The translations under genes were made by a program, and so were the position numbers. DNA of 24,637 bases, from positions 1 through 24,637 of IMG/VR virus record IMGVR_UViG_3300029908_001149. The stretch is one strand, 5' to 3'. Positions 2-16,790 of the stretch are shown here, piece by piece (within the stretch, counting starts at the first letter, position 1; the number at the start of each line of letters is the position of its first letter). This DNA is from a virus. The notes beneath the pieces are model-generated. The model was not told where the DNA came from. It ran no database searches and saw only the letters and a list, made by a program, of their open reading frames with translations.

Positions 2-235
2 TGGTATCTCGACAATAAGCTTCACCGCGAAGACGGACCGGCTGTTGAGTGGAATGATGGAGAATTGTGGTGGTATTTGAACGGTGGCTTTCACCGCGAA
101 GATGGACCTGCTATAGTCAGACTGGATGGCAACAATGTTTGGTTTTTAAACAACCGAGAGCTTACCGAAGAAGAATTCTCTGGATATTTAAGAAATAAAC
201 AGTTCAACGACAGTATTAACGAGGCTTTAAAATGA
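2..235 (+). CDS. HREDGPA-repeat protein, 5'-truncated by window edge
   Basis: Open at the window start; 77 residues are visible in the frame beginning at base 2. It holds two copies of a roughly 23-residue repeat (W-Y-L-x-x-K-L-HREDGPA-x-E-W-x-DG), which resembles the MORN-like/YwqK-type repeats seen in phage and giant-virus proteins. It ends with the module TEEEF-x6-NKQFNDSINEALK that closes several other proteins here. The stop TGA overlaps the next ATG as ATGA, and the GAGG in the Glu-Ala codons (223-226 region) is the next gene's Shine-Dalgarno, so the two genes are translationally coupled. Function is unknown; such repeats usually form beta-hairpin stacks. The repeat family is certain, the role is not. 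Confidence 0.85.
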   Translation, partial: WYLDNKLHREDGPAVEWNDGELWWYLNGGFHREDGPAIVRLDGNNVWFLNNRELTEEEFSGYLRNKQFNDSINEALK

Positions 236-720
236 AAGACGGATTAACTATCGATGAATACGGTAATAAATTCTGGTACAAGAATAATGTTTCTCACCGT
301 GAAGATGGTCCAGCCGGAGAATGGGCTGACGGCGGCTCTAAACACTGGTGTTTAAATGGTAAATACCACCGCGAAGATGGTCCAGCTATCGAATGGGCTA
401 ACGGAACTAAAGAATGGTATTTAAACGACAAACTTCACCGCGAAGACGGTCCAGCTGTCGAACGGGGTGACAATGGTAACAAAGAATGGCGTCAATACGA
501 TAAATTACATCGCAAGGACGGTCCAGCCATTGAACGTTACGATGGTTCTAACTTCTGGTACTTAGAAGGCAAACTTCATCGCGAAGACGGTCCCGCTATA
601 GAGTATTCTAATGGTGAAAAAGTATGGTCCCTTCACGGTGAAGAAGTTACCGAAGAAGAATTCAATCAACTTCAACGTACTAAACAATTCAACGACAATA
701 TCAATGAGGCCTTGAAATGA
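232..720 (+). CDS. HREDGPA-repeat protein (five repeats, conserved C-terminal tail)
   Basis: A 162-residue protein made almost wholly of five tandem 23-24-residue repeats, each starting HR(E/K)DGPA, followed by an acidic or aromatic stretch and a W-Y-L type beta strand. The last 25 residues are the shared tail module (TEEEF ... QFNDNINEALK). There is no signal peptide or membrane segment, so it is probably a soluble cytoplasmic protein. The start ATG overlaps the upstream stop by 4 nt and is preceded by GAGG at 7 nt. Its own TGA overlaps the start of the IscA-like gene in the same way. Similarity to MORN_2/YwqK-type repeats is recognised by eye; the function is unknown. Confidence 0.9.
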   Translation: MKDGLTIDEYGNKFWYKNNVSHREDGPAGEWADGGSKHWCLNGKYHREDGPAIEWANGTKEWYLNDKLHREDGPAVERGDNGNKEWRQYDKLHRKDGPAIERYDGSNFWYLEGKLHREDGPAIEYSNGEKVWSLHGEEVTEEEFNQLQRTKQFNDNINEALK

Positions 721-1034
721 TCTATTTCACAGAAACAGCTGGAAATAAAATAGCTAGTATGATATTCGAGGGATACTGTCTAAGGATGTCCATGATCGGT
801 GGTGGATGCTCAGGAATGAATTATCAAATGGCAATAGTACCAGATGAAGATTTCGGGCTTGAAGATTTCACTTTAGAGTTTATTGATAGCTTTAAACTAG
901 TCGTTGATTACAAAAGTCTGGAATTCCTACAAGGAACAACTGTAGATTTCTCTGACGGCTTAAATGGACACGGTTTTAGTTATTCAAATCCAAACGCTAA
1001 ACGAACTTGCGGCTGTGGTAAGAGCGCCTGCTAG
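717..1034 (+). CDS. IscA/ErpA-type (HesB family) iron-sulfur cluster carrier
   Basis: A 105-residue protein, the usual length for A-type Fe-S carriers. The family's cysteine pattern is present: C31 in GGGCSGMNY and C98-G-C100 within NPNAKRTCGCGKS near the C-terminus. In the family these bind a 2Fe-2S or 4Fe-4S cluster and pass it to apo-enzymes. An additional C105 is the last residue. The gene follows a repeat protein with an ATGA overlap, so it is co-translated with it. Its stop TAG (1032-1034) directly abuts the stop of the convergent aminotransferase gene with no spacer. In a phage it may mature a phage Fe-S enzyme or support the host Fe-S supply during infection. The client is not in this window. 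Confidence 0.9.
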   Translation: MIYFTETAGNKIASMIFEGYCLRMSMIGGGCSGMNYQMAIVPDEDFGLEDFTLEFIDSFKLVVDYKSLEFLQGTTVDFSDGLNGHGFSYSNPNAKRTCGCGKSAC

Positions 1035-2018
1035 TTATAGATTCTTTCTCAATCTGTAGATAAGTTCTTCGAATTCCTTATCAGAGCAAGCTAAATTCAA
1101 CCGCCTACAAGATTCATCACCACCAAATTGAGTTCCACTACTACCTAAGATGTCCATCTCAAGTAATCTTTCCTCTAGATTTTCGCCTTTAATATAAGCA
1201 AACATACCGTTTTTAGCAATAGATTGGATATCTGTGTCAAAGAAAACAGAATCTAATTGATTGCGGCGTTCTGTTAATACTTTATTGCCAAATTCAAAGC
1301 AAGATTCGATTCCAGCTGGCAGATCTAATAGATATTGAATAACTTTAGCAGCTTTGTTTTGAGAATCCTTACTTACGCCTGATGTTTGATGTTCTACGAA
1401 AAAAGCCATATTAGCTGCTATGATAGGATCTTTGACTAAAGCCCAACCTATACGAGTTCCAGCGTGTCCAGTAGCTTTAGATAAGCTGAATACCATTATA
1501 TCTTCGTCAAATTCCATTACCTCATTAACGTAAGTAGGCCAATTATAACATAAATCAAATATCTTAGCCGAGTTAATGGACACTGGTCTAACTTCACAAT
1601 TTCCATCTGGATTCCCTGGAATTGTAATGAGTTCCACTAATTCTGAATCCTTGGAGCTAATATTGTCTATATCTGTATTTTTCAATCCGCAAGTTGATAG
1701 ATCTACAAAATGGGGGAATTTATGGAAATGTGGTGGCTCAAAATATATCCTACTATGAGTTTTACCCATTGCATACATAGCGGCTTGTAGGATTTGAGTT
1801 GCGCCATTGCCGACTACCAATCTAGTATCTGAAGTAATTTTGGCATTGCCTATTTTCCTATGTAGTTCTTTAATTGGCTCAATCAATGAAGCTGTTATAG
1901 CTGACTTTGGATACGACATGAATTCACCGGAAGAGAAGGTGATGTCGAAACGATTTACCCAATAAGCTTCTAGGAATGTGGGATTCCCAATTCTTAGATC
2001 GAGTAGAGTGTTTTTCAT
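1035..2018 (-). CDS. PLP-dependent aminotransferase, alliinase / tryptophan aminotransferase (TAA1)-like
   Basis: A 327-residue fold-type I PLP enzyme. Visible signatures are: N-terminal GNPTFLEAYW (like the GDPxxxExYW of alliinase/TAA1); the phosphate loop GNGATQ (70-75); IPGNPDG with N136; DLCYNWP with D155 and Y158; the PLP lysine K181 in SLSKATGHAGTRIGW, with R189; and the C-terminal carboxylate-binding region CRRLNL (304-309). The S-K-x-T-G-H-A-G-x-R-x-G-W block is characteristic of the alliinase C-terminal/TAA1 family, which includes C-S lyases and L-Trp or other amino acid:pyruvate transaminases. The EGF-like N-terminal domain of plant alliinase is absent. The start overlaps the upstream 48-aa gene (ATGA). 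The substrate is unknown. Family confidence is high; transaminase versus lyase cannot be decided. Confidence 0.85.
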   Translation of the reverse strand: MKNTLLDLRIGNPTFLEAYWVNRFDITFSSGEFMSYPKSAITASLIEPIKELHRKIGNAKITSDTRLVVGNGATQILQAAMYAMGKTHSRIYFEPPHFHKFPHFVDLSTCGLKNTDIDNISSKDSELVELITIPGNPDGNCEVRPVSINSAKIFDLCYNWPTYVNEVMEFDEDIMVFSLSKATGHAGTRIGWALVKDPIIAANMAFFVEHQTSGVSKDSQNKAAKVIQYLLDLPAGIESCFEFGNKVLTERRNQLDSVFFDTDIQSIAKNGMFAYIKGENLEERLLEMDILGSSGTQFGGDESCRRLNLACSDKEFEELIYRLRKNL

Positions 2019-2161
2019 TTTAGAGCTTCCTCAATTGATTGATTGAACTGTTTATTTCTTAAATATTGAACATATTCTGCTTCGGAATATAAAACGTCAT
2101 CTACTTTAGTATAGCCTAATTCATGACATTTTCTCATTACATCGCCAATTGCTGTTAGCAT
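2015..2161 (-). CDS. 48-aa protein carrying the shared C-terminal tail module
   Basis: A short gene whose 48-residue product begins MLTAIGDVMRKCHELG and ends YSEAEYVQYLRNKQFNQSIEEALK (given here in parts: YSEAEYVQYLR, NKQFNQSIEEALK). That is the same tail that ends the HREDGPA-repeat proteins, but here with no HREDGPA repeat. AGAGGA lies 9 nt upstream of the ATG, a good ribosome binding site. The TGA overlaps the aminotransferase ATG (ATGA), and GAGG in the Glu-Glu codons is available as its Shine-Dalgarno. Only 4 nt separate it from the upstream repeat-protein gene. It shows that the tail is an independent module. Function unknown. Confidence 0.75.
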   Translation of the reverse strand: MLTAIGDVMRKCHELGYTKVDDVLYSEAEYVQYLRNKQFNQSIEEALK

Positions 2162-2165
2162 AAAT

Positions 2166-2393
2166 TTATTCCTCTAGAATTTTGCTCATGTTCTCGTTGA
2201 ACTGTTTAGTACGTTGATATTGTTTGAATTCTTCTTCGGTGTAAGGATAGCCGTTTACCCACCAGAATGTCTCACCATCGGGAAACTCTACCGCTGGACC
2301 ATCTTCGCGGTGAAGTTCGCCGTTTAAGTACCAGGTTCTAACGTCGTGTTCATCAATATGAAGTCCGTTTTCGGTGAAAAAGCTTTCTTTCAT
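2166..2393 (-). CDS. HREDGPA-repeat protein (single repeat)
   Basis: A 75-residue protein with one HREDGPAVEF repeat flanked by W-Y-L-N-G and W-W-V-N-G strands, then a divergent tail (TEEEFKQYQRTKQFNENM...ILEE). It is the first gene of a minus-strand operon running into the 48-aa protein and the PLP enzyme. The bases just before its ATG (ATTGAGGCTCTAAA) read as I-E-A-L-K-stop in frame, exactly like the coding tail that precedes other genes here, although no gene lies upstream; the stretch keeps the GAGG Shine-Dalgarno. A consensus-like promoter sits about 18-46 nt upstream. Function unknown. Confidence 0.85.
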   Translation of the reverse strand: MKESFFTENGLHIDEHDVRTWYLNGELHREDGPAVEFPDGETFWWVNGYPYTEEEFKQYQRTKQFNENMSKILEE

Positions 2394-2407
2394 TTTAGAG
2401 CCTCAAT

Positions 2408-2451
2408 TATACTATATCACACTTTAGGTCTCAGGTCAATGATATAGTATA
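2408..2451. repeat. 12-bp perfect inverted repeat spanning a divergent promoter region
   Basis: TATACTATATCA (2408-2419) is mirrored exactly by TGATATAGTATA (2440-2451) across a 20-bp centre. Each arm contains an extended -10 (TGATATAGT) for the gene on its own side, the repeat protein on the minus strand and the M15 peptidase on the plus strand. It could be a binding site for a regulator or simply two back-to-back copies of the phage's preferred promoter element. Confidence 0.6.
2411..2439 (-). promoter_or_regulatory. sigma70-type promoter for the 2393-1035 operon
   Basis: On the minus strand, TTGACC (2434-2439) is followed by a 17-bp spacer and TATAGT (2411-2416), preceded by TG one base upstream (extended -10). 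The predicted transcription start is near 2404. That leaves only about 10 nt of leader, with the GAGG ribosome binding site right at the 5' end. Confidence 0.65.
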
Positions 2452-2461
2452 GAGAGGTTCT

Positions 2462-2905
2462 ATGATTAATTGGGAAGATGAAAAATGTATGGTTAGTTCC
2501 TTTTTTAGCGTACGCGAATGTTTGTGGCTTCCAACATGGGGACGCATGGCCACAGAAGCCGACGGGTTAACAGATGAGATAAAAGCTAATCTAGTAGCTT
2601 TATGTAATAAAATGGATCAAGTTAGAGCTTGGTTTGGACAATCTGTTAATGTTCACGTTACTTATAGGCCATTGAAGTATAATCAAGAGATAGGAGGAGC
2701 TCTTCATTCAATGCACTCAGTCGGTTCCGCGATGGACTTCAACATAGTCTCAGTAGACTGTGATACAGCCAGGAAAATGATTATGGACTCTAGCATGTTA
2801 GTCGCATGGGACATGCGCATGGAGGACAATCCGCCCGGTAGTCATTGGGTCCATTTAGATTGCAAAGAGGTGCCCGCTGGCGGACATAGGTACTTTATTC
2901 CTTGA
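2462..2905 (+). CDS. M15 family (M15A-like) zinc peptidase, probable endolysin
   Basis: A 147-residue protein with the M15/VanY-type signature S-x-H-x-x-G-x-A-x-D (S83, H85, G88, A90, D92) and the downstream W-V-H-L-D (H131). H85, D92 and H131 would bind zinc. Family members cut peptide bonds in peptidoglycan stems as D-Ala-D-Ala carboxypeptidases or L,D/D,D-endopeptidases, and many phage endolysins have this domain alone at this size. There is no signal peptide, so export would need a holin-type partner. TYRP-type sequence at 67-70 fits the arginine region of the family. Its 3' end overlaps the convergent gene by 11 bp. A plus-strand extended -10 (TGATATAGT, 2440-2448) lies just upstream. 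Confidence 0.85.
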   Translation: MINWEDEKCMVSSFFSVRECLWLPTWGRMATEADGLTDEIKANLVALCNKMDQVRAWFGQSVNVHVTYRPLKYNQEIGGALHSMHSVGSAMDFNIVSVDCDTARKMIMDSSMLVAWDMRMEDNPPGSHWVHLDCKEVPAGGHRYFIP

Positions 2906-3326
2906 CAGACAATACTTCGTAGCCCAATAAGTCTTCGAGATCTTCATCAGTCATTGGTGAGTATTTAAAATATGTACTGCTTACGAATTCTTTAGTATTA
3001 CCGGATGAGGTTCGATATCCACCGTGCTCGTTTGGTCCTATGAGGGTGAGAAATTCTCCATACAGAGGTTCGTCAGTTACTTTGCTCAAATCTCGCCCTT
3101 TAGGACGTGGTATGATAAACTTAGCATTTTCTTTATCTATAAAGATCTTCATGTTAAAAATGGAATCCATTGTACATATCTGCTCTACTGATATCCGAGT
3201 AGTTTCGTGGATAACTTCTAATTCCTTGCTATCGCCATGGGATAGAGCTAAGTTAGAGGTTTTCTCAACTATAAAAAGTTCACTACCATCAGCATAGGAT
3301 ACTTTAAATAACTTCATTTCTTCCAT
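2895..3326 (-). CDS. hypothetical protein (143 aa)
   Basis: I do not recognise this protein. It is predicted soluble, mixed alpha/beta, with an acidic C-terminus (TDEDLEDLLGYEVLSVKE) and no signal peptide or membrane segment. AAGGGA about 8 nt upstream supports the start at 3326; an internal ATG three codons later, preceded by GGAAGAA, is an alternative. It is convergent with the M15 peptidase and overlaps its last 11 bp, so the two stops interlock and no terminator separates them. It lies downstream of the zinc-ribbon gene on the same strand with a 45-bp gap. Confidence 0.7.
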   Translation of the reverse strand: MEEMKLFKVSYADGSELFIVEKTSNLALSHGDSKELEVIHETTRISVEQICTMDSIFNMKIFIDKENAKFIIPRPKGRDLSKVTDEPLYGEFLTLIGPNEHGGYRTSSGNTKEFVSSTYFKYSPMTDEDLEDLLGYEVLSVKE

Positions 3327-3371
3327 ATGTCAGTCCCTTCTAATAGTCTTTTAATCATTAACAGTTCCATA

Positions 3372-3584
3372 TCATTCTACACCGGAAGCGGAATATTGGT
3401 TTATATGTTCGATATAAGGATAAGCTCTATCTGATAAACCGGTCTCATGGCATCTATCGCAGGCATGCAGATAAGTCAGATTTACATCACCCCAACTCTC
3501 TTTTAGATACTGCATATCGCCTTCTAAGCAGACAGTACATTTTAAATCCACTCTATAGGTATCTACTTTAGTTATTTTTTCCAT
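3372..3584 (-). CDS. small zinc-ribbon protein, candidate leaderless gene
   Basis: A 70-residue protein with two Cys pairs, CTVC (17-20) and CDRC followed by His (near 42-46), spaced like a small treble-clef or zinc-ribbon domain. Function unknown; such proteins are often nucleic-acid or protein adaptors. No Shine-Dalgarno precedes the ATG. Instead a TTGACA-16-TATACT promoter ends 7 nt before it, so the predicted transcript begins at or within one or two bases of the start codon. An array of TAGGACA half-sites lies upstream of that promoter. Confidence 0.75.
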   Translation of the reverse strand: MEKITKVDTYRVDLKCTVCLEGDMQYLKESWGDVNLTYLHACDRCHETGLSDRAYPYIEHINQYSASGVE

Positions 3585-3591
3585 CAGTATC

Positions 3592-3619
3592 AGTATAACA
3601 TAGCTAAGTAATATGTCAA
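3592..3619 (-). promoter_or_regulatory. sigma70-type promoter immediately before the zinc-ribbon gene
   Basis: On the minus strand, TTGACA (3614-3619), a 16-bp spacer and TATACT (3592-3597). The predicted start is near 3585 and the ATG is at 3584, so the message would be leaderless or nearly so. Confidence 0.65.
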
Positions 3620-3642
3620 TGGTTATTTTACACGAAACACAT

Positions 3643-3700
3643 GTGTCCTAAATAGGACACTAAAGACATAAATAGGACATTAAAATATCTATTTAGGACA
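3643..3700. promoter_or_regulatory. operator-like array: GTGTCCTAAATAGGACAC palindrome plus two phased half-sites
   Basis: A perfect inverted repeat with 8-bp arms, GTGTCCTA-AA-TAGGACAC, lies at 3643-3660. Further TAGGACA copies start at 3673 and 3694, giving 20- and 21-bp spacing from 3653, about two helical turns. The array begins about 24 bp upstream of the -35 of the zinc-ribbon promoter. The core CCTAAATAGG recurs downstream of the promoter at 10439-10467. A regulator binding site is the simplest reading, but no regulator is identified. Confidence 0.5.
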
Positions 3701-3751
3701 TTTACAAGAAAAGCCACATACTGTCACTATTTGATAGTTTCCGGCAGAGAC

Positions 3752-4198: not shown

Positions 4199-4212
4199 AC
4201 TATACTATATCA
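4199..4212 (-). promoter_or_regulatory. extended -10 element abutting the 148-aa gene
   Basis: Minus-strand TGATATAGT (4204-4212) with the hexamer TATAGT five bases from the ATG at 4198. No convincing -35 is present. If used, it would give a leaderless transcript; otherwise the gene depends on read-through from the protease gene. Confidence 0.4.
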
Positions 4213-4216
4213 TGGA

Positions 4217-5722
4217 CTATTTCTTAGGTTTCTTAGGCATACTTTTTGCTAGGATCTTTTCTGCTTTTAAGGATTTATTCATAGCAATAACTGAACCAAT
4301 AGAATCGATCTCGCCTAAAGTTAAGTTAGGCATTCTTTTGTGCATGAAATCTCGGAATTCTTCTTTCTTGCCCCAAACCTTGTATTCTTCCTTGGCACGT
4401 TTGGACCATTTTTTCTTACCACTATCCAAACTTTCCTTCACTAATGCGGCACCGCCAGCTAATTGAGAAGGAGCGACGTTTCCAGATCCGGCAGTCAAAG
4501 CTTTCTTGATCTCTTTCTGGCCAGCCTTAGGGGCTCCGGAAGCTCCTTGAGAAGGCATGTTAAACGATCTGTTGCCGCCAGTAGTACCGGCGTTTAAACC
4601 GCTTAGGTATTTATGAGCATGAGCGCTAGCACTTTTCGCATCTGCGTGTCCATGACCAGAAACTCCGCCGACTCCAGCATAGTTACCGGCATGTTTAACG
4701 TCAAACTTATTAGTTTCAGGATTTTTCATAACTGAAACAGTCCCCATCATTGGGTGCTCATAATGAGCTGCAGCATTGCCGCCTTTAGTTTGCACCAAAG
4801 TGCCTTGCCAGCCTTCTGGAGCTTTGATCTTTTGTCTTGTTTCAGTATTAAAAGGTATAGGAGTGCCGACCGGCTTAGGAGCTTTTGGTGCTGCTGGTTC
4901 AGCTTTCTTCATATTAGCAGCTTCGGTATGTTTTTTACCTTCAGCAGTGTGCATATCGGAGATATGAGAGGCCGGAGCTAAGTGGGCGACTCCATGTCCG
5001 CTAGCGTAATCGGCGTGCATTGCTGCAGCTTCATGATGTTCAGCTGGAGTGAAATCTTTGTGAGCAGGATGCTCAAAATTGATATGGATCGGTTTGCCAG
5101 TGGAAGTATGGTCGTAGGGACGTTTACTGAATTTGTCGGCTTTTTCCATGGTAGTTCCTGCGTTAAGTAATTGGATGGCAATCGAAGATTCGGATTTAAA
5201 GATATCTTGATCAAAAAGATCATTCATAGAATCTTTTACAGGTTTATTTTCTGGCATTAATTTAGCAATAGCTGCTTTATTACAAGGAGTTACAGTGATA
5301 GTGACTTTGCGAGCGATAGATTTTGTGATGTACATTCCATTCTTATCTATCTTAGCTCCCTCGATTGAAAAGCCAACGATATCATGTTCATGGGAATTAG
5401 CGGCAGAGTACATAAATAGACCGGCAATATCTTTTGCTGATTCATTATAATCGTCAAATAATTCGCCAGTAATATAAAGAAAGGGAACTTGACATTGGGA
5501 CCAGAAGAATTTCTCATTATCTGAGGAGCATTCGTCTTCGGTCATTATTTTCTTAGCAGTTAGGATTTTACCTACAGTTTGCCCAGGAAGATCGGATTTG
5601 TGTTCAAAGTTTAAAGTACCATCTTTATCCAAAGATGTAATATCCAATCCGGACATTAAGAGCACTTCTCCTGAACTATCGATGTTCTCACTGGCCGCAA
5701 TGCCTTGAATTTTAGTAGCCAT
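4217..5722 (-). CDS. prohead (capsid maturation) serine protease with long scaffold-like C-terminal region
   Basis: A 501-residue protein. The N-terminal ~165 residues look like a herpesvirus/phage prohead protease: a catalytic His in NFEHKSDLPGQTVGKI (H41), a catalytic Ser in VGFSIEGAK (S119), and the strand IARKVTITVTPCNKAA that follows it in this family. It would cleave scaffold and capsid N-termini in the prohead. The rest is low-complexity: a His-rich stretch (about 210-270), an Ala/Pro/Lys linker, a Gly-rich middle and a basic C-terminus ending KPKK. Around residues 405-430 it carries KALTAGSGNVAPSQLAGGAAL, closely matching the capsid protein N-terminus. A fused or embedded scaffold role is plausible. 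GAGG about 10 nt upstream supports the start. Confidence 0.8.
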   Translation of the reverse strand: MATKIQGIAASENIDSSGEVLLMSGLDITSLDKDGTLNFEHKSDLPGQTVGKILTAKKIMTEDECSSDNEKFFWSQCQVPFLYITGELFDDYNESAKDIAGLFMYSAANSHEHDIVGFSIEGAKIDKNGMYITKSIARKVTITVTPCNKAAIAKLMPENKPVKDSMNDLFDQDIFKSESSIAIQLLNAGTTMEKADKFSKRPYDHTSTGKPIHINFEHPAHKDFTPAEHHEAAAMHADYASGHGVAHLAPASHISDMHTAEGKKHTEAANMKKAEPAAPKAPKPVGTPIPFNTETRQKIKAPEGWQGTLVQTKGGNAAAHYEHPMMGTVSVMKNPETNKFDVKHAGNYAGVGGVSGHGHADAKSASAHAHKYLSGLNAGTTGGNRSFNMPSQGASGAPKAGQKEIKKALTAGSGNVAPSQLAGGAALVKESLDSGKKKWSKRAKEEYKVWGKKEEFRDFMHKRMPNLTLGEIDSIGSVIAMNKSLKAEKILAKSMPKKPKK

Positions 5723-6454: not shown

Positions 6455-7363
6455 ATGCATTACACTGAGACTGAACTAGCAAAGCTAATTCAAAGTGTGG
6501 AAGCGGAATTCACCGCCCACCTCGCTAAGGCTGAGGAACACTTTGAACCTGAGCATAAAGATGCTAAAGAAGAACCTAAGCATCATGAAGAGCACAAAAA
6601 AGCTCATCATGAAGAAAAGGAATCTGAAGAGCATAAAGAAAGCCCAGAGCATGACTATGATGATGAAGACATGGAACATATGCATAAAATGTATATGAGC
6701 ATGCATAAAGGTGAGATCCACGCTCACCATCACGCTTTAAAGAAAGCCATGGAACACCATGGACTTACTTGCCATGATCTCGAAGAAGAAAAAGAGCATC
6801 ACGGCAAAGAAGAAGCTGAAGAAGAACATCATCACGGCAAAGAAGAAGCTGAAGAAGAACATCATCACGGCAAAGAAGAAGAAGAAACTAAGGCGCACCA
6901 CGAGAAGAAAGAAGCTATCAAAGGTGCTTTAAAAGAACCAAAAGAGATGGAGAAGGTTGAAAAACCGACCGAACTCAAGCCTCATGATAAACATGAAATC
7001 TCCCACAAAGAGTTGCATGAAAAGTCTAAGGATATTGGTTCCGAGCCTGAAATTCAAAAGTCTGAAATCGCAGCCCTTAAAGCTGAAAGAGATGGACTTA
7101 AGAAGAACTTGGATGTAATAACTGAATGGTTAAAGGGACAAGCTTCCAAGGCAGCCCCTCAAAGTAAGGCCATTACTCGATTGGATTCTATCACCAAAAG
7201 TGAAGAAACTAAAGAAGTAGCTACCTTATCCAAAACAGAAATTACGACCATATTAACCAAAAAATCTTCAGAACCAAGTTTATCGAAGTCTGATAGAGAA
7301 TTAATCAACGCTTACTACCTTGACGGTGCAAGCTTAACAAGTATCAGTCACTTACTCAAGTAA
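6455..7363 (+). CDS. His/Glu/Lys-rich protein, probable capsid scaffold
   Basis: A 302-residue, extremely charged protein directly upstream of the capsid gene, the usual place for a scaffolding protein. Residues about 30-165 are His/Glu/Lys-rich with three tandem copies of an 11-residue unit (HHHGKEEAEEE). Residues about 195-230 look like a coiled coil (KSEIAALKAERDGLKKNLD), and the last 25 form a short helical domain (DRELINAYYLDGASL...HLLK) resembling the compact capsid-binding end of scaffolds. AAGGAG lies 8 nt before the ATG. The His density could bind metal ions or make the protein pH-sensitive; that is inference. It does not carry the AGSxNxAP motif shared by protease and capsid. Confidence 0.6.
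   Translation: MHYTETELAKLIQSVEAEFTAHLAKAEEHFEPEHKDAKEEPKHHEEHKKAHHEEKESEEHKESPEHDYDDEDMEHMHKMYMSMHKGEIHAHHHALKKAMEHHGLTCHDLEEEKEHHGKEEAEEEHHHGKEEAEEEHHHGKEEEETKAHHEKKEAIKGALKEPKEMEKVEKPTELKPHDKHEISHKELHEKSKDIGSEPEIQKSEIAALKAERDGLKKNLDVITEWLKGQASKAAPQSKAITRLDSITKSEETKEVATLSKTEITTILTKKSSEPSLSKSDRELINAYYLDGASLTSISHLLK
6794..6889 (+). repeat. 33-bp tandem repeat inside the scaffold gene (about 2.9 copies)
   Basis: Unit boundaries at 6794, 6827 and 6860; each 33-bp unit encodes (E/H)HHGKEEAEEE. The first two copies are almost identical in bases and the third diverges after GKEE. The length keeps the frame, so copy number can vary without breaking the protein. Confidence 0.85.
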
Positions 7364-7390: not shown

Positions 7391-8797
7391 ATGTATACTG
7401 AACAAATGCAATCACTGATGAAGGCTTTGGAAGCTGGTTCTTACAATGCAGCTCCAGGCCAATTAGTACAAGGCGCTGCCTTGATGATCGAAGATCTTTC
7501 CCCAATCATGCACAATGTGACTTTTGATGATTCACACATCAAGTTACAAAAGATGCTAACTAGCAAGGCTGTTAAGTCGCAATTACATCAATTCGACAGA
7601 CAACTTGATTATGGTATCTTCGGTGGATCCGCTCAATTTGAAGGCGGGATCGGCGAAGAGGATACAAGTAATTTCGTCCGTGCTGTAGTGCCTATGGCTT
7701 ACTACTCCACGACACGTCGCGTAACTGTTGCTTCCAACATGGTAGCTACACTTGATGGCGTAAAAGCGGAAGATCGTTCAGCTGCTGACGCTGCAATGAA
7801 ACTTTGCGGTGACGTAGAATTCGACTTGTTCCGTGGACAATCTGACTTCTCAAACGCAGGCGTATTCGATGGTAACCCACTTGCAATCGCTAAAATGCCT
7901 AACATGATCGGCTTAGATCTTCAAGTACGTCAATCAGACGGTGAATTAAACACCCAAGATTTGATGTTCTCTGAATACGGATCTAGCTTGACTGTAGTAC
8001 TTTCGGCTGACGGAACGCTTACGCAATCCATCATCGAAGATTCTTCAGTAAGAAGTGCAATGAACATGGGTGCCGCTGACAAATTGTTAGTAGATCCAAT
8101 CGTTCTATCAGCTTACAACAAGATCTCACACGCTAAAGAACGTATCATGCTTGCTGGTTCAGCTCAAGAAGCTACTGGCGCTCACTTACGTACTCAATGG
8201 ACTTCAGCAGCTGTAGTTTCCTTAGAGCCTTCTAGGTTCCTTTCTGGAAAAACACAACCAGCTCGTGCTCGCTCCGGATCCCCAGCGGCTCCAGGTGCAA
8301 TCACTCCATCCGATGCAGGTGCAGCAGGTTCAATGTTAGCAGCTGGCACTTACTGGTACTTCGTAACTGCTTTCAGCATACGCGGTGAATCTCTTCCAAG
8401 TGCAGCAGTTTCCGTAGCGGTAGCTGCAGCAGGTGACAAAGTAACTGTTGCTATCCCAGCAGTAGCTTTGGCAGCGGGCTTCAACGTTTATCGTTCAGAA
8501 GTCGGCGGATCAGCTTCAAGTGCTCAATTCATCGGAAAGATCGCTTCTCCTTATGGAACAGGCGTAACTTTCACTGACTTAGGTGCTCGCTCCCCAGGTT
8601 CCGTAACAGGATTCTTGGTTCAAGGGAACACAATGGGTATTGCTCAACTTGCTCCTTATAGCAAATTAAAGCTTGCAGTCGCAGATTTGTCGCTTCCCGA
8701 AGCGCACTTCAGATTTCTATCTTTAGCAGTTTTCCAACCTCGTAAGAACGTTCTTTTAGACAATCTTACAGGACAATTGACTGGCGGCGGATACTAA
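7391..8797 (+). CDS. probable major capsid protein with an inserted Ig-like domain
   Basis: A 468-residue protein in the order protease, scaffold, capsid, preceded by AGGAGATAA and followed by a strong terminator, as expected for a highly expressed head gene. The N-terminus holds KALEAGSYNAAPGQLVQGAAL (11-31), near-identical to a segment of the protease C-terminus. The central part (about 40-290), with a long FDDSHIKLQKML-type helix and strands, fits an HK97-fold capsid. Residues about 296-405 (AAPGAITPSD ... TYWYFVTAFS ... GFNVYRSEVGG ... FTDLGARSPGS) read as an Ig/FN3-like domain inserted before the last strands (AHFRFLSLAVFQPRKNVLLDNLTG). The head role rests on context and composition; the family was not confirmed by search. 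Confidence 0.75.
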   Translation: MYTEQMQSLMKALEAGSYNAAPGQLVQGAALMIEDLSPIMHNVTFDDSHIKLQKMLTSKAVKSQLHQFDRQLDYGIFGGSAQFEGGIGEEDTSNFVRAVVPMAYYSTTRRVTVASNMVATLDGVKAEDRSAADAAMKLCGDVEFDLFRGQSDFSNAGVFDGNPLAIAKMPNMIGLDLQVRQSDGELNTQDLMFSEYGSSLTVVLSADGTLTQSIIEDSSVRSAMNMGAADKLLVDPIVLSAYNKISHAKERIMLAGSAQEATGAHLRTQWTSAAVVSLEPSRFLSGKTQPARARSGSPAAPGAITPSDAGAAGSMLAAGTYWYFVTAFSIRGESLPSAAVSVAVAAAGDKVTVAIPAVALAAGFNVYRSEVGGSASSAQFIGKIASPYGTGVTFTDLGARSPGSVTGFLVQGNTMGIAQLAPYSKLKLAVADLSLPEAHFRFLSLAVFQPRKNVLLDNLTGQLTGGGY

Positions 8798-8868: not shown

Positions 8869-10407
8869 CTATATTTTCTTTATCCATTTAGAATTTCCCG
8901 TACCATAAATTTTCCAGTACCCTTCTTCTTTCATAGCTGCGTCACCTTTTTTCCATGAGATCTGCCTAGGAAATCTTGACTCTTTATTACACCAGTGCAT
9001 ATCGGGTTCTGTGAATTCTACAAATTGGAACTTATTTCTCTCATAAACTTCACCGTGACTATAACGTCTATCTGCATATGTCATAATCGTATCTATTCCG
9101 TTAGCTTTTAGACTTTTCTCAGCTGAGGCCAGTAACCTATCGAAGCCAGAGCCTACGCTCCAATTTAGTTTGGAACAGAATCTAGCTATCTCTACTGTTT
9201 TTTCGTCTTCATTGACTCTAGGAGTTCTAAAAGTAAGTAGAGATACCAATTCGTCCTTATACCATAGACCTAGGCGTAACGTGCCTCGACATTGACCTTG
9301 CAAGTGATTTGCGTTTAAAAAAGCACTGGCCGTTTTATAATCAACTTCTTTCAAAGTACATTCTCTAGCATATATCTTATGTTGAAATATTCCTAATTTA
9401 GCTTTTATTACAGATTCTACTATATCAGTTTGTTCATTAATTTCATCTTCAAAAAACTGCAGTAACTTAATATCATGTTTGTCGGCTAATTCTGCCTTAA
9501 GCCTATGACTTGATCTGTCAACGCCTATAGAAATGTCCGATTCTGCCTCTTGATGCCAATATAGGCCGTGTAATTCGATTCCGAATTTGCGTTCTTCATC
9601 GTATAAATCTATTTCTAGAGCATTGTTCCCATTTTTAGTATCGTCCCTATATAAAACACGACGGTTCCGCTCTATATTAGGTAGAAGATCTTTTATAAAG
9701 TCATAAACTTTAATTTCCATTGAACTTTTAGGAGTACAAAACGGACAGTTACCGCGTTTAATAAAATTATTGCTGCGCTGTAAAAATATATGTTCTTTTG
9801 GACACATATATTGATACACTCCATCATCGTTGAAAGTTAACACAGTAAAATCTGGAAATCTCAGTTTAGCCAATCGAACATGTCTATCATGAAGAGAAAT
9901 CGCTTGTTCAGTTAAAGCATTGCTTACTCTAGTTTTACGCTCCTCATCAGTCAAGCTATCCCATATATTCTTGCCAAACTCAGATGTCCCAAAACCGCTA
10001 ACTTCGTTGTTTTTTAATGCAGTTTCTCTTCTAATTTCAATTGCTTCAGGATTTTCAGCTATATAATCAGTCACAGATTCTGAAATCTTATCTCTAGTAG
10101 CTTGAACAGACATGTTTTTAGTAGCTGTAACAGACCATTGATCACCTCTCTCGGCTATAGCTTTAGAAATAGCCTTACCCCTATTAGCGAGTACTATAGG
10201 GTCTTTGCTTTTAATTCTATTGGAGCAAATATTACAGATTAGTTTATCTTGATATTGTCCACGTCTTCGAATTTTAATTGGACTTAAGCAATTCTGAGTC
10301 GTGCATTGCCACAGCATTTGTGCTGGTTGTAATCTCGTACCTTCATAAGTACGTTCTCTATCTTTTGTAACTACTACTAAATCTTCTCTATCATTGGACC
10401 GGTTCAT
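8869..10407 (-). CDS. Vsr-like (EDxHD-type) homing endonuclease with zinc ribbons and GNAT-like C-terminal domain
   Basis: A 512-residue protein. Order of parts: an N-terminal Cys cluster (C35, C40, C58, C61); a linker; a second zinc ribbon (C202, H206, C221, C224); then a nuclease core with E231, EID (265-267), IELHGLYWH (277-285), H301 and the FFEDEI block (318-323). This arrangement is typical of the Vsr-like EDxHD homing endonucleases of phages. The final ~165 residues (YARECTLKEVDY...) look like the acetyltransferase-fold domain often attached to these proteins; no acetylation role is implied. It is free-standing, antisense to the capsid gene, with its own promoter, and would promote its own spread by cutting uninserted phage DNA. 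The ribosome binding site is poor (TTAGG about 10 nt upstream). Confidence 0.8.
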   Translation of the reverse strand: MNRSNDREDLVVVTKDRERTYEGTRLQPAQMLWQCTTQNCLSPIKIRRRGQYQDKLICNICSNRIKSKDPIVLANRGKAISKAIAERGDQWSVTATKNMSVQATRDKISESVTDYIAENPEAIEIRRETALKNNEVSGFGTSEFGKNIWDSLTDEERKTRVSNALTEQAISLHDRHVRLAKLRFPDFTVLTFNDDGVYQYMCPKEHIFLQRSNNFIKRGNCPFCTPKSSMEIKVYDFIKDLLPNIERNRRVLYRDDTKNGNNALEIDLYDEERKFGIELHGLYWHQEAESDISIGVDRSSHRLKAELADKHDIKLLQFFEDEINEQTDIVESVIKAKLGIFQHKIYARECTLKEVDYKTASAFLNANHLQGQCRGTLRLGLWYKDELVSLLTFRTPRVNEDEKTVEIARFCSKLNWSVGSGFDRLLASAEKSLKANGIDTIMTYADRRYSHGEVYERNKFQFVEFTEPDMHWCNKESRFPRQISWKKGDAAMKEEGYWKIYGTGNSKWIKKI

Positions 10408-11270: not shown

Positions 11271-11477
11271 CTAGTATCTTTTGTGCCACTGAGGTCTTTG
11301 ATGCAAGTATTTTGCAGCTTCAAGATCAGAGGCGGTTTGTTTTAACGTAGTAAGAACTTCATTTAACGATTCTTCATCTAGATCTAAGCTATTGATTTTC
11401 TTTATCATTGTATCAATATCTTTTTCCATATCTGATATTTGTAGTTGAAGTGTCTTTAAGAATTTATCTAATGCCAT
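11271..11477 (-). CDS. small coiled-coil protein
   Basis: A 68-residue, almost fully helical, heptad-like protein (FLKTLQLQISDMEKDIDTM...) with a basic, aromatic C-terminal end (HQRPQWHKRY). No known family. The ATG shares one base with the stop of the SbmA-like gene (TAATG), and GGAG is 9 nt upstream inside that gene, so it is translationally coupled to it. A partner or regulator of the transporter is a reasonable guess from coupling only. Confidence 0.7.
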   Translation of the reverse strand: MALDKFLKTLQLQISDMEKDIDTMIKKINSLDLDEESLNEVLTTLKQTASDLEAAKYLHQRPQWHKRY

Positions 11478-12367
11478 TATTTTGTCTCCATTTCGACTAT
11501 GCGATTAATCACTGATTCCAGTTTTGAAATATCATCCTGCTTCTCGATAATGAGTTCTGAACATTCAATAATGACTTTCATGGCATCTGCAGTCGCAAAA
11601 AGAACACCCAAAGAAAGAGTCCCAAAGAAATATTGCCTAGCCAGAAGCAAATGCGGGAATACTACTGCCGCTTGTAAATAGCCCGACTGAAAGAAACCTA
11701 ATTTCTTGGCTCGAATCATTAAAGCGGACCAGTTCTGTTTAACATCATCTAAGACTGGTGCTTTAGTGAAACTTTTATCCCAAGTAAGTATCTTTTGTCT
11801 TAGAGTTGATTCTCTGCTTTCTTGTTCATAGGAAAGTTGAACTAACGGTTGAGCGATCCATTTTGCAATTCGGCTGCCAACAATTACCCATATGGCTATT
11901 GGTAATAAAAACCAAGGACTAGCTGTGGAGACTAATAGGTATATGAAAATAGGTAAGGTAATAAAAGCGTTGATACAAGCTGTAGCCAAAGTCAAGGTCA
12001 TCGTTGTAAGTTCTTCTAAATCCATGGTCAATCGTTGCTCGTTAGTTCCCGTCTCATTTAAGACTCCAGAAGTAAGCTTTAAATACAAAGCCTCACGCCA
12101 AATGAACGATAGGCCTCTTTTAAAGTACGAATTATAACCTTTGCTCAAAACCCAAGCTGCTGCCATGGCGGAAAAGAAGGCTATGGCCTCTAAAAAGTGT
12201 TGGAAGTTGTGTTGTTGGAAAGAATCCATGAACATACGTCTAAATTGATTTAGACCGACCGTGAGAGCTACCATCGATAACTCAGTTAACAGAATTGCCA
12301 TCAGAAGCTTATAGCTGCCTTTGGCATTATAACACATCTTTAATAGCTTGAATAAATTCTTAAGCAT
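11477..12367 (-). CDS. SbmA/BacA-like ABC-transporter transmembrane protein lacking an ATPase
   Basis: A 296-residue polytopic membrane protein. Six likely membrane segments lie at about 20-40, 57-78, 124-147, 151-171, 224-247 and 252-275. Family marks of SbmA/BacA and ABC_membrane_2 proteins are visible: IWRE (89-92) after helix 2; NEQRLTMDLEE (109-119, like NPDQRIxEDI); the cytosolic stretch PLVQLSYEQESRESTLR (174-190); and AVVFPHLLLARQYFFGTLSLG (given as AVVFPHLLLARQ and YFFGTLSLG, 234-254). It ends with ISKLESVINRIVEM, where the transmembrane domain of relatives ends, and no nucleotide-binding domain follows in any frame. SbmA/BacA import peptides and some antibiotics using the proton gradient. 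An ATPase-less half transporter or dominant-negative partner of a host ABC protein is the alternative. Confidence 0.75.
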   Translation of the reverse strand: MLKNLFKLLKMCYNAKGSYKLLMAILLTELSMVALTVGLNQFRRMFMDSFQQHNFQHFLEAIAFFSAMAAAWVLSKGYNSYFKRGLSFIWREALYLKLTSGVLNETGTNEQRLTMDLEELTTMTLTLATACINAFITLPIFIYLLVSTASPWFLLPIAIWVIVGSRIAKWIAQPLVQLSYEQESRESTLRQKILTWDKSFTKAPVLDDVKQNWSALMIRAKKLGFFQSGYLQAAVVFPHLLLARQYFFGTLSLGVLFATADAMKVIIECSELIIEKQDDISKLESVINRIVEMETK

Positions 12368-13017: not shown

Positions 13018-13031
13018 GACAACTACTTTCT

Positions 13032-13082: not shown

Positions 13083-13085
13083 ATC

Positions 13086-13331
13086 CTATTCATCAGTGGA
13101 TTCGATGACCGTGTCGTCTTCGACGTTATCTAACGAGTTTTCTATGTTTCTATTAAAAATGATGGTTCGCATTTTAGTTTTATGTTCATTTTCAGTATAT
13201 TCAACGCCATAGAGGTACCATTTACGATTCCCTTTAACATATTCTATAGCAGGGCCTTCTTCACGATGAAGTTTGCCATTTAAGTACCAGAATACATTGC
13301 CGTTAGAATTGTAAACCGGACCATTTCTCAC
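13086..13331 (-). CDS. HREDGPA-type repeat protein (GTG start, divergent tail)
   Basis: An 81-residue protein with one HREEGPAIEY repeat between two W-Y-L-(N/Y)-G strands, then a diverged tail (TENEH...FNRNIENSLDN) extended by an acidic end. The GTG start overlaps the preceding TGA (GTGA), with GAGG upstream supplied by the previous gene's Glu-Ala codons. It is the last gene of the phosphoesterase operon. The decayed tail agrees with no gene following closely on this strand. Confidence 0.8.
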   Translation of the reverse strand: MRNGPVYNSNGNVFWYLNGKLHREEGPAIEYVKGNRKWYLYGVEYTENEHKTKMRTIIFNRNIENSLDNVEDDTVIESTDE

Positions 13332-13531
13332 TTAAGAGCCTCATTGATATTGTCGTTGAATTGTCTATTGCGTTGAAGTTGTCTGATTTCTAGTTCGGTT
13401 AATGCTATACCATTTAAGTACCAGCGTTTATCACCGTCATTCCATTCGATAGCTGGACCATCTTCACGATGAAGTTTGCCGTTTAAGTACCAGCGTTTAG
13501 AGCCCGATTCGGTATGTAGACCGTTTTTCAT
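13328..13531 (-). CDS. HREDGPA-repeat protein (single repeat)
   Basis: A 67-residue protein: MKNGL start, W-Y-L-N-G-K-L, one HREDGPAIEW repeat, W-Y-L-N-G, then the full tail (TELEIRQLQR, NRQFNDNINEALK). The start overlaps the upstream stop by 4 nt with GGAG as Shine-Dalgarno, and its own tail supplies GAGG to the GTG of the next gene. It is closely related in sequence to the tail proteins at 16575-16790 and 232-720, implying duplication within this genome. Confidence 0.85.
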   Translation of the reverse strand: MKNGLHTESGSKRWYLNGKLHREDGPAIEWNDGDKRWYLNGIALTELEIRQLQRNRQFNDNINEALK

Positions 13532-13824
13532 TTTAAAGCTCCATCGATCCTTTTGTTAAACAATTCACGATCAGTTTCTTCGTACTTGTCACCGGGCTCT
13601 ATATTGACGTAGATTCGTTCTTTGGAATATCTAGAAGTACTTGGTCCAAGTAGATCATTGATAGTTCTTAACATATCAGCCATTGCCGATAAGCCATCGT
13701 CTTCCTCGTTGTTTTGATATACATAATCAGTATGATCGGGCGGATCATTATCGAACGTTACAGTATGTGATAGAATAAATCCGTTATCTGCTACTTTAAT
13801 AGTAATCACAATATTATTCCTCAT
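13528..13824 (-). CDS. hypothetical protein (98 aa) with a tail-like C-terminus
   Basis: A soluble protein beginning MRNNIVITIKVADNGFIL, with an acidic centre and a conserved-looking GDKYEE motif. No family could be named. It has no HREDGPA repeat, yet it ends RELFNKRIDGALK, which resembles the shared tail (QFNDNINEALK). The codons for DGALK give GGAG ahead of the next ATG. The start overlaps the phosphoesterase stop (ATGA). Confidence 0.7.
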   Translation of the reverse strand: MRNNIVITIKVADNGFILSHTVTFDNDPPDHTDYVYQNNEEDDGLSAMADMLRTINDLLGPSTSRYSKERIYVNIEPGDKYEETDRELFNKRIDGALK

Positions 13825-14462
13825 ATGTCAAAAACCAAGGGTTTATTAGTTACTTCATATCTCTCGTTCAATTGAGAGGCATTTGCAAAAGTAATGTTAT
13901 TGATTAAATTTTGTCCAAAAGATCCGTGGATATGGCCAAAGAAGTGGTGTGTTAAATTAGGTAACTGTTTAACTCTCTTAAGTAGCTCTTCACAGCCAAG
14001 GAATTCGCTATTAGCTTCTGGATAGGCTTGATCTAAGATACCATAAGGAGGCCCATGGGTTACAAGGACCCGGGTATCTTCAGGTATCTGGGCCCATTTC
14101 TTTGCGATCTCAGGACCTCTGAGCACGTTATAACTCCAGTCGTGGAATTCAGGCTGGAAGGGCGATAGCCAGAATTTGATGCCTTCAATTTCAATTTGCT
14201 CATGAATCAATAGCTTAGCGGCACTTAATACTGCTTTGGCCATTCCTGGATCTTCTTCTATACAGATGTCATGATTTCCTGGTGAGATAAGAATTCCGTG
14301 TTTAAACTTAGGAGCTTGCTTCATAAGCCATTGATTAAACTGGATTAACTCTCTGACAGAGCCACGGGAACAGAAATCGCCACAGTGGATTAGTAGGTCC
14401 CCTTCTGGTAATTCAATCTGATCATGCAAAGTATGAGTATCGCTTATTATTACTAACTTCAA
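13821..14462 (-). CDS. calcineurin-like metallophosphoesterase, MPPED family-like
   Basis: A 213-residue enzyme with all metal-binding motifs of the family: SDTH (D8, H10), GDF (D29), GNHD (N63, H64), VTHGPP (H136) and GHIHG (H177, H179). The W-L-S-P-F-Q-P-x-F-H-D-W region (about 98-109) and GPPYGILD match class III phosphodiesterases such as MPPED1/2. These hydrolyse phosphodiesters, including 2',3'- or 3',5'-cyclic nucleotides in some members; the substrate here is unknown. The start is TTG, 9 nt after GGAG; no ATG fits better. First gene of a four-gene operon of overlapping stops and starts. Confidence 0.88.
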   Translation of the reverse strand: MKLVIISDTHTLHDQIELPEGDLLIHCGDFCSRGSVRELIQFNQWLMKQAPKFKHGILISPGNHDICIEEDPGMAKAVLSAAKLLIHEQIEIEGIKFWLSPFQPEFHDWSYNVLRGPEIAKKWAQIPEDTRVLVTHGPPYGILDQAYPEANSEFLGCEELLKRVKQLPNLTHHFFGHIHGSFGQNLINNITFANASQLNERYEVTNKPLVFDI

Positions 14463-14475
14463 AAGTATGATCTCC

Positions 14476-14510
14476 TGATATAGTATATCATACGTACAAG
14501 CGTTTGTCTA
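14476..14510 (-). promoter_or_regulatory. promoter of the phosphoesterase operon, overlapping a 15-bp palindrome
   Basis: On the minus strand, TAGACA (14505-14510), 17-bp spacer, TATACT (14482-14487) with TG one base upstream. The -10 lies in the palindrome TGATATAGTATATCA (14476-14490), which also forms an extended -10 on the plus strand, towards the ice-binding gene. The predicted leader is only about a dozen bases, with GGAG at its very 5' end. Confidence 0.65.
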
Positions 14511-14572
14511 TCCCAATCTTATGGATAGCGAACACGCGATAATTTACTTTGATCTTTCAAGGAGATCCTATC

Positions 14573-16501
14573 ATGGCCATTTCTAAATTCGATAATGATT
14601 ATTTTATCAATGCTTTAACTAGCCAAGCAGCCGGGTTGGAGTTGATTAGCGCTCTTGAAAATGGATCGGTTTTATCAACATTCACTTTAGATAGACTAAT
14701 CATAGCTTTAGGTAGTCAACAAGCTGCTTTAAATCTACAAGCCGCTATGATCAACAAGGGAATTCTTTCAGCAGAAGATATTCAATATATGAGCCAAGGC
14801 TTTGCTAATGCTCAAGTAGCTCAAGACGCCGTAGCAGCAATCGCATCTTCAAACGCAGTATCTAACGCTATAACTGCTCCATCTTTAGTAGGAATGCCAA
14901 TAACTTACGGATTAGAAGTGGCAAATTCCGGAGTTACACAAGCTCAAATAGTAAGTTTAAGCGCTCCAGCAGGAAGTTCTTTCCCTACAACTGGAACAGC
15001 CGGATACGTTGAACTGTACAACGGCGGAGACGCTAATAAGTATTATGTATGGTATAGCGTTCTAGGTGGCAGCGTAGTTGATCCAGCTCCAGCCGGGTTC
15101 ACTGGTATCGAAGTCATTATAAACGCCAGTGATACTGCTGCAGCTGTCGCTACAAAGACTCTGACAGCGATTGCTGCTGGAACCGTAGCTTTATCTACAT
15201 CCGTTTCCGGATCAGTAGTCAGCATTACTGCAACTGTAGTTTTAGTCGCTACTCCTACTTTCTCTTTACCAGCTGGAACTTATTCTGGGACACAATTTGT
15301 AACCCTTTCTTGCTCTACAGCCGGTGCGTCAATGTTCTATACATTGGATGGATCCTCTCCTACGATTTCAAGTACACCTTACGTAACAGCGATCTCGGTT
15401 GGCGCTAGCGAAACTATTAAGGTATTAGCTACCAAATCAGGTCTAGCTAATTCCGCAATCGCAAGTGCAGCTTACGTGATTACTGGATCAGCAGGTGTCG
15501 CTACTCACTTAGTGTTTTCAACACAACCTTCAGCAGGTGTAGCTGGAGTCGCTTTTCCTACTCAACCTATCGTAACCATTAAAGATGCTTCAGGCGCAAC
15601 AGTAACGACTGGTGCAGATGCTACTGCTTCTATTACTCTATCACTTCTTTCAGGAACCGGAGTTCTATCCGGTACAGTAACCATGGCTGCTGTTGCGGGT
15701 GTAGCTGACTTCGTAGGTAAAGGGGTTAAGATAAACTTATACGGTAATAAAACTTTATTAGCAACTAAAGCTGACACTACCGGCGGCGGCGGGACAGTCT
15801 CGTTCACAATCGCTAGCGATACTTTTAATATCGCTAACAGTTTAGCAACCGTTGACCTAGGAACATCTGCTAACTATAAGATCTTAGCTGAGTCTGGCAT
15901 TTCCACAACAGCTGGATCTTTTATCACTGGCGCTATTGCAGTAAGCCCTATAGCTTCAACGGCAATAACCGGTTTCGGTCTAATATTAGATGGAAGTGGA
16001 ACCTTCTCTACCTCTTCATTAGTAAGCGGACATGTATTCGCAGCAGATTACGCTTCTCCTACTCCAGCGACTTTGACTACAGCAATAAGTGACATGGGAA
16101 CAGCCTATACGGACGCGGCTGGCCGACCAACTCCTGATTTTACAAATCTAGGTTCTGGTAATCTTGGCGGATTAACATTAACTCCTGGTCTATACAAATG
16201 GACAAGTGGCGTAACGATTCCAACTAACGTGACAATTTCCGGTGGACCAAACGATATTTTCATATTCCAAATCGCCGGTACATTAGTAATGTCAGCTTCC
16301 ACCAGTATCATTCTAAGTGGTGGAGTAGTTGCTTCCAATATCTTCTGGCAAGTTGCCGGAGCTGTAACCATTGGAGCAAATGCTGTATTTAGTGGTATTG
16401 TATTAGCGCAAACAAGCGTCGCTTTAGTAACCAGTGCTTCTTTAAGCGGACGTATCTTAGCTCAAACAGCTGCTACCTTACAAAGTAACGCTATAACCTA
16501 A
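14573..16501 (+). CDS. modular virion-type protein with C-terminal DUF3494 ice-binding domain
   Basis: A 642-residue protein; the start is ATG 14573 because AAGGAG lies 8 nt upstream (an upstream in-frame TTG is discarded). Parts: a helical N-terminus (1-125); a beta region typical of phage fibre/tail proteins (about 130-225, GYVELYNGGDANKYYVWY); a chitobiase-C-terminal/FN3-like domain (about 228-305, VTLSCSTAGASMFYTLDGSSP); an Ig-like domain (about 309-420); and a DUF3494 ice-binding domain (about 424-642). The last is recognised by DLGTSANYKILAESGIS, ITGAIAVSPIASTAITGF, ADYASPTP, AYTDAAGR, LTPGLYKW, NDIFIFQIAGTL, NIFWQVAG and GRILAQTAATL. DUF3494 folds into a beta-solenoid that binds ice in polar bacteria, algae and fungi. 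There is no signal peptide, so placement on the virion is likelier than secretion. A terminator follows. Confidence 0.85.
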   Translation: MAISKFDNDYFINALTSQAAGLELISALENGSVLSTFTLDRLIIALGSQQAALNLQAAMINKGILSAEDIQYMSQGFANAQVAQDAVAAIASSNAVSNAITAPSLVGMPITYGLEVANSGVTQAQIVSLSAPAGSSFPTTGTAGYVELYNGGDANKYYVWYSVLGGSVVDPAPAGFTGIEVIINASDTAAAVATKTLTAIAAGTVALSTSVSGSVVSITATVVLVATPTFSLPAGTYSGTQFVTLSCSTAGASMFYTLDGSSPTISSTPYVTAISVGASETIKVLATKSGLANSAIASAAYVITGSAGVATHLVFSTQPSAGVAGVAFPTQPIVTIKDASGATVTTGADATASITLSLLSGTGVLSGTVTMAAVAGVADFVGKGVKINLYGNKTLLATKADTTGGGGTVSFTIASDTFNIANSLATVDLGTSANYKILAESGISTTAGSFITGAIAVSPIASTAITGFGLILDGSGTFSTSSLVSGHVFAADYASPTPATLTTAISDMGTAYTDAAGRPTPDFTNLGSGNLGGLTLTPGLYKWTSGVTIPTNVTISGGPNDIFIFQIAGTLVMSASTSIILSGGVVASNIFWQVAGAVTIGANAVFSGIVLAQTSVALVTSASLSGRILAQTAATLQSNAIT

Positions 16502-16521
16502 TAGCAAAAGAACATCCTAGC

Positions 16522-16581
16522 GGCGGACGCTCCGCCACTCTCCATTGGGGGCTGACTTAAAACGTCGGCCCTAATTATTTT
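16522..16581 (+). terminator. double hairpin terminator after the ice-binding gene
   Basis: GGCGGA-CGC-TCCGCC (16522-16536) is followed by a longer hairpin, GGGCTGAC (16549-16556) and GTCGGCCC (16564-16571) with one G-T pair and a 7-nt loop, then TAATTATTTT. It lies between convergent genes and partly reaches into the end of the minus-strand gene. Confidence 0.65.
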
Positions 16582-16790
16582 AAAGCCTCATTGATATTGT
16601 CGTTGAACTGTCTATTACGTTGATATTGTTTGAATTCTAGTTCGGTTAATTCTTTGTTATTTAAATACCATACTTTATATTCTGCAATACGCACTTCTTG
16701 GGACCCCATGAAGACTCCCGAATAGTAGTGCACTGTCTTGATATGCTCGCCATTGAGAGGTTTATTATCTTTGTCTATATTATTTCTCAT
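16575..16790 (-). CDS. 71-aa tail-module protein (repeat family without HREDGPA)
   Basis: It keeps the W-Y-L-N-N strand and the full tail (TELEFKQYQR, NRQFNDNINEALK) of the repeat family, but the N-terminal half has no HREDGPA motif. ATG overlaps the thymidylate kinase stop, with GAGG from the kinase's last codons as Shine-Dalgarno. Here the tail ends in TAA instead of TGA and no start codon overlaps, in line with there being no following gene on this strand. The peptide tail is nevertheless intact, so it is kept for more than coupling. Function unknown. Confidence 0.8.
   Translation of the reverse strand: MRNNIDKDNKPLNGEHIKTVHYYSGVFMGSQEVRIAEYKVWYLNNKELTELEFKQYQRNRQFNDNINEALK

Follow-up and report, generated by a model that had tools for sequence, protein, structure and literature searches.

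A shared C-terminal peptide on MORN-like repeat proteins and other small proteins of a phage: a putative interaction handle

Why should small proteins that otherwise differ end in the same peptide within a single phage? The question is raised by the virus record IMGVR_UViG_3300029908_001149 (24,637 nt; 24.6 kb), the whole length of which is called the window here. A preliminary description had listed eight ORFs with shared ends of the QFNDNINEALK type, and all eight are open at the coordinates given below, with ends as it described. The tail is a peptide module at the C-terminus, about 11–24 residues long, that occurs on 10 repeat proteins and on three or four proteins whose heads are of other kinds. 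Our preferred reading, to which we assign a probability of roughly 0.45, is that it acts as an interaction handle.

Two of the eight ORFs lie on the plus strand. ORF 2-235, cut at its 5' end by the window edge, has at least two HREDGPA repeats and ends in the tail LTEEEFSGYLRNKQFNDSINEALK (161-232), while ORF 232-720 has five repeats and ends in VTEEEFNQLQRTKQFNDNINEALK (646-717). The minus-strand ORFs are more varied. The 48-residue ORF 2015-2161 has no repeats and ends in YSEAEYVQYLRNKQFNQSIEEALK (2018-2089); the one-repeat ORF 2166-2393 ends in YTEEEFKQYQRTKQFNENMSKILEE (2169-2243), a diverged copy of the tail (QFNENMSKILEE); and the one-repeat ORF 13086-13331 has a diverged tail followed by 14 extra residues (DNVEDDTVIESTDE, 13089-13199). 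The one-repeat ORF 13328-13531 ends in LTELEIRQLQRNRQFNDNINEALK (13331-13402), and ORF 13528-13824, whose head lacks any HREDGPA repeat, has the weak tail KYEETDRELFNKRIDGALK (13531-13587). Finally, ORF 16575-16790 retains just the last half repeat (YKVWYLNN) and ends in LTELEFKQYQRNRQFNDNINEALK (16578-16649); no gene follows downstream of 16575, where the neighbouring ORF 14549-16501 is convergent. Repeat counts of five, two, one and none hold as first reported. The term 'near-identical' fits the ends of five or six copies, but not those of 2166-2393 and 13086-13331. Repeats are visible in the DNA as well; 641-721, for example, recurs at 16574-16654 (81 nt, 84%). The tail genes are directly interspersed with two others, one for an A-type Fe-S carrier (PF01521; 717-1034) and one alliinase/aminotransferase-like (PF04864, 7e-57; 1035-2018).

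A longer contig, IMGVR_UViG_3300031788_000018 (G001; 56,313 bp), is 99.97% identical to positions 1-21845 of the window in reverse orientation, and the two represent one phage. It holds the full-length copy of ORF 2-235 (G001 21611-21943), in which the tail reads NETLK instead of the NEALK of the window, a natural variant between two contigs of one phage. The number of tail ORFs in G001 is 14, a count of mechanically predicted ORFs on incomplete metagenomic contigs. Ten have HREDGPA-type repeats and four do not, the latter being the ORFs at 16575, 2015 and 13528 of the window plus G001 55626-55919 (MKPND...RRRQFNKNITDALE), which adds a further unrelated head. Like 13086-13331 in the window, G001 55906-56313 runs well past the module.

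Tails on the repeat-less ORFs stand out from other protein ends. A C-terminus model of 12 positions, built solely from the tails of HREDGPA proteins, was compared with 9,879 ORF C-termini from phages without the tail, among which the top score was 8.8. By this measure 2015-2161 scored 35.0, 16575-16790 scored 43.4, and 13528-13824, by far the weakest tail, scored 14.8; G001 55626-55919 exceeded every one of the 9,879 controls. The HREDGPA-only model also matched the non-repeat G001 ORFs 5050-5271 (E 3e-16), 19673-19831 (E 3e-11; 2015-2161 in the window) and 55626-55919 (E 3e-5). Possibly, G001 31955-32281 (..FNQAISGSLKE) is a further member, with a score of 8.1 that one of the 9,879 controls also reached. 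G022 106596-106955 and G021 7666-7917 were left out as firm members, their matches being short. The tail is not confined to HREDGPA proteins, so the module proposed in the preliminary description withstands the refuting condition set there; 2015-2161, 13528-13824 and G001 55626-55919 provide the otherwise different heads. A search with the heads of 13528-13824 and G001 55626-55919 among named phages returned nothing useful.

The HREDGPA repeats themselves are about 23–24 residues long (GxxxWYxNGxxHREDGPA), with a spacing of 69–72 nt in 232-720. Their consensus matches DUF6745 (PF20530) at 4e-10 and MORN_2 (PF07661) at 1.2e-6, the latter with 28.5 bits against a curated cut-off of 29.6, and ORF 232-720 scores 30.7 against DUF6745, above the cut-off of 27. 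In the AlphaFold2 model of this ORF (21 sequences; mean pLDDT 96.6), short strands are stacked like a ladder and a single helix, residues 141-161 (TEEEFNQLQRTKQFNDNINEAL), closes the C-terminus. The five best solved matches in Foldseek were all MORN1 structures (E 3e-5 to 1e-4); VIA-align gave MORN1 structures Z scores of 7.7–7.8, level with other repeat folds. The model indicates that the repeats are MORN-like and adopt a MORN beta-hairpin solenoid fold, of which the tail is predicted to be the C-terminal helix. For 13528-13824, a C-terminal helix is predicted at residues 83-97 with a pLDDT of about 70. For the tail, neither PHROGs, Pfam, NCBIfam and PADLOC (a weak PHROG match to 2015-2161 had E 0.003) nor solved structures offered a convincing match.

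Is the tail, then, a mere structural cap? A TEEEF-type cap after the last HREDGPA repeat is common to many phages, the QFNDNINEALK part being special to this one, and in the model of 232-720 the tail is continuous with this cap. The cap is also retained in 2015-2161 and 16575-16790. These two ORFs, the exceptions of the preliminary description, indeed lack a full HREDGPA repeat, but because they keep the cap they are probably HREDGPA genes with lost or swapped heads. Hence the main rival to our reading: the tail would simply close one MORN-like family that expanded in the phage, its uniformity reflecting descent and the non-repeat ORFs being head-swapped or decayed copies. This would explain 2015-2161 and 16575-16790 well, and it agrees with the tandem, lineage-specific arrangement of HREDGPA families. 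Yet no convincing cap accompanies the tail in G001 55626-55919 or in window 13528-13824, and the tails are under stronger constraint than the repeats they supposedly cap. Moreover, modules in other phages come after a linker on pentapeptide, FapA-like and globular heads, where a MORN cap is impossible. We therefore regard the structural cap as a possible but doubtful explanation of the whole set.

The strength of this constraint is apparent from the substitution patterns. In G001 the tails have a pN/pS of 0.22, or 0.16 without the last five codons, in comparison to 0.40 for the repeats of those genes. These values bear out the suggestion that selection acts on the peptide. Across seven phages, the tails ranged from 0.00 to 0.23 and the repeats of the same genes from 0.40 to 0.97; an eighth, G025, gave 0.74 for its tail, probably owing to length-variable, misaligned ends. 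Identity was 74–100% among tails versus 55–75% among repeats. Synonymous sites in the G001 tails are near saturation (pS 0.77–1.0), which rules out recent copying as the source of their sameness. The codon data thus point to an old peptide kept by amino-acid selection. This fits an interaction handle, but a capping helix required for folding could yield the same pN/pS.

An alternative explanation might be that the DNA rather than the peptide is selected. In most copies the last tail codons, (AAT) GAG GCT TTA AAA TGA, place GAGG 7 nt ahead of the overlapping ATG of the next gene. At 214-235 on the plus strand, for instance, a Shine-Dalgarno motif and an ATGA stop/start overlap lie in the tail codons, and other copies are arranged alike. 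At the fourth codon from the end, 7 of 8 copies use GAG for glutamate, whereas 15 of 100 other Glu codons in these genes are GAG (Fisher p 4e-5, an optimistic value that treats paralogous copies as independent). By this codon pattern, the last codons of the tail appear to double, in this phage, as the ribosome-binding site for the overlapping gene that comes next. As the sole cause of tail conservation, however, such coupling of translation to the next gene is largely refuted by the sequences, and we give it very little credence: pN/pS stays low (0.16) without the last five codons, the QFN..I part upstream of the Shine-Dalgarno motif varies synonymously, and the tails of other phages often lack a gene overlap. 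ORF 16575-16790 also has its tail with no gene following. The preliminary description took this intact copy as a sign of peptide selection, an argument that overlooks the Shine-Dalgarno motif of the next gene in the tail DNA elsewhere.

Near-identical gene ends might also serve as recombination anchors that allow heads to be exchanged, in the manner of cassette shuffling. One tail on different heads, the tandem clusters and the variable repeat number would all agree with this. But with pS of up to 1.0 in the tail DNA, identical stretches are short, and an anchor would account for the origin of the arrangement rather than for the constraint on the peptide, which makes it a highly improbable explanation.

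The architecture is not unique to this phage. HREDGPA proteins are encoded at 43 IMG/VR loci, and among the phages compared, which were picked for having HREDGPA genes, nearly every one with at least two HREDGPA paralogs gives them a common, lineage-specific end. Examples are ELTLDEIASKFGVSVSKLKIKK, ETIVDLWLAKNIYCFYN..SLEFE, KVIEIDGKKYKLVEA, DEQIIMWKLLQ, DPKEQFWWKMK, TQEQFERLMRLKAFW and DQLVFWVTTKER, among others. Exceptions are G028, where a tail of this sort is missing, and some phages with two tail types. In G025 (L133 contig), two zinc-ribbon-like ORFs at 100223-100456 and 100963-101244 start with TDDKEEFWKSL and TDKEKFWKTL. These starts resemble, at a weak E of 0.35–0.46, the C-terminal tail TDPKEQFWWKMK of the HREDGPA proteins of that phage, as if the motif fits either end.

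Two other modules end proteins that are unrelated. The KVVEIDGKKYKL module (pattern C.GKVVEIDGKKYKL.EV) follows pentapeptide repeats (PF01469, 6e-15), a FapA-like solenoid (PF03961, 1e-7), YENS repeats and other heads, ALALAF-type proteins among them. For this module, and not for QFNDNINEALK, one head was seen both with and without it: the pentapeptide head carries the module in L259 and lacks it in Roseobacter phage CRP-811 (gp20) and in MT835533.1. Similarly, the LGYKIKIV module, in full M(T/S)xxEIExxLGYKIKIV, is found at the end of eight families of unrelated heads, in L289 twice side by side, and also closes four HREDGPA paralogs in L293. Neither module has a convincing family or solved-structure match, and the exact KVVEIDGKKYKL pattern had no match in the bacterial genome collection. 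Choline-binding-like repeats came up as matches to the hairpin module, which we attribute to chance. The KVVEIDGKKYKL and LGYKIKIV modules are not homologous to the QFNDNINEALK tail; the parallel is one of architecture. The same module on non-homologous heads supports, at the sequence level, the idea of a mobile C-terminal module. The mobility of QFNDNINEALK itself is suggested by one genome and by analogy with these non-homologous modules.

Where did the tail come from? In its major capsid protein, the phage has 54% identity to Myxococcus phage Mx1 and 52–81% to environmental contigs of up to 171 kb, so it is probably Mx1-like with a genome of about 170 kb, of which the contigs cover only part. 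Neither the tail nor the HREDGPA repeats occur in Mx1 and 12 relatives, although these relatives have the same structural genes around the insertion points. By this comparison the tail genes appear to be accessory. A collection-wide scan for the exact degenerate pattern QFNxNIxEALK, which would overlook diverged copies, matched no contigs other than those of this phage. This pattern of occurrence fits a single origin or arrival of the tail, which would then have spread over several genes in one genome.

The window carries several other genes as well. ORF 6455-7363, immediately upstream of the capsid gene, is scaffold-like, with a 33-nt tandem repeat at 6785-6919 that encodes EEHHHGKEEAE. Beside the capsid gene, an insertion at 8869-10407 encodes 512 residues that are endonuclease-like in the N-terminal region and resemble Mom towards the C-terminus (PF25680, 4e-7), and 20990-21742 is a GIY-YIG/NUMOD homing endonuclease amid structural genes. 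ORF 11477-12367 is a phage homologue of SbmA/BacA-like peptide transporters (PF05992, 4e-15). ORF 14549-16501, conserved in several relatives, combines a complete Ice_binding domain (PF11999, 7.8e-69) with a CHB_HEX_C domain; its product is possibly a virion surface protein.

The tail might instead direct its carriers to a destination: into the virion, to a scaffold or prohead, or into regulated proteolysis. A sorting signal would be expected on unrelated small proteins, as seen here, and a phage-encoded receptor would explain why the tail varies between phages. Yet the module is missing from relatives that share the structural genes, so that a receptor unchanged in all of them is unlikely. 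In addition, the tail need not stand at the extreme C-terminus, where an ssrA-type signal stands, as 13086-13331 and G001 55906-56313 continue past it. This makes a strict C-end degron, one form of the degradation tag considered at first, unlikely. On the whole, we judge a destination signal improbable.

Comparison with known systems helps to place the module. KilA-N and Bro-N are mobile domains that phages and large DNA viruses join to many different proteins; they are larger, globular and usually N-terminal. The phage modules are likewise joined to many proteins, but are C-terminal peptides of 11–25 residues without a known family. Encapsulin cargo-loading peptides and ssrA-like degrons are short C-terminal peptides on unrelated proteins, and the tail resembles them in this, though it needs no extreme C-terminus. 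MORN, MORN_2 (PF07661) and DUF6745 (PF20530) proteins share the repeats of about 23 residues and the MORN1-like model, whereas the phage proteins are short and multicopy, have a phage-specific end module and score slightly below the curated cut-off of MORN_2. In TbMORN1, TgMORN1 and PfMORN1 the interaction site lies at the C-terminal end of the MORN array (PMC7725318), as it putatively does here; their interface is formed by the repeats themselves, in contrast to the appended helix of the phage tail.

We consider docking or co-assembly the likeliest function of the tail, which would then be an interaction handle as proposed above. The variable heads, whether they differ in the number or the sequence of their repeats or consist of an unrelated domain, would be shown on a common partner via the tail. 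Alternatively, tailed proteins may co-assemble with one another through it. Solved MORN1 proteins are protein-protein interaction modules that dimerise C-terminally (PMC7725318), and this association via C-termini makes tail-mediated co-assembly plausible. Since the module is uniform within a phage and differs between phages, a phage-specific partner or self-association is suggested. Retention of the HREDGPA cap by two non-repeat window heads speaks against a handle. We found no paper on a shared C-terminal handle of this kind in the open-access papers searched, a silence that is not proof of novelty. More tentatively still, and with the odds rather against it, phages might own a set of short C-terminal address modules that can be swapped between proteins, each phage having one or two. 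Such modules would mark otherwise unrelated proteins, for the most part beta-repeat scaffolds, as destined for a single assembly or compartment that is specific to the phage and common to all of them.

The function of most small phage genes is not known. A shared handle, if it is indeed carried by unrelated ones, would group them in one system, which one bait peptide would then suffice to test. As the architecture recurs in phages that are unrelated and use different handles, it could point to a general means by which phages direct proteins to a partner.
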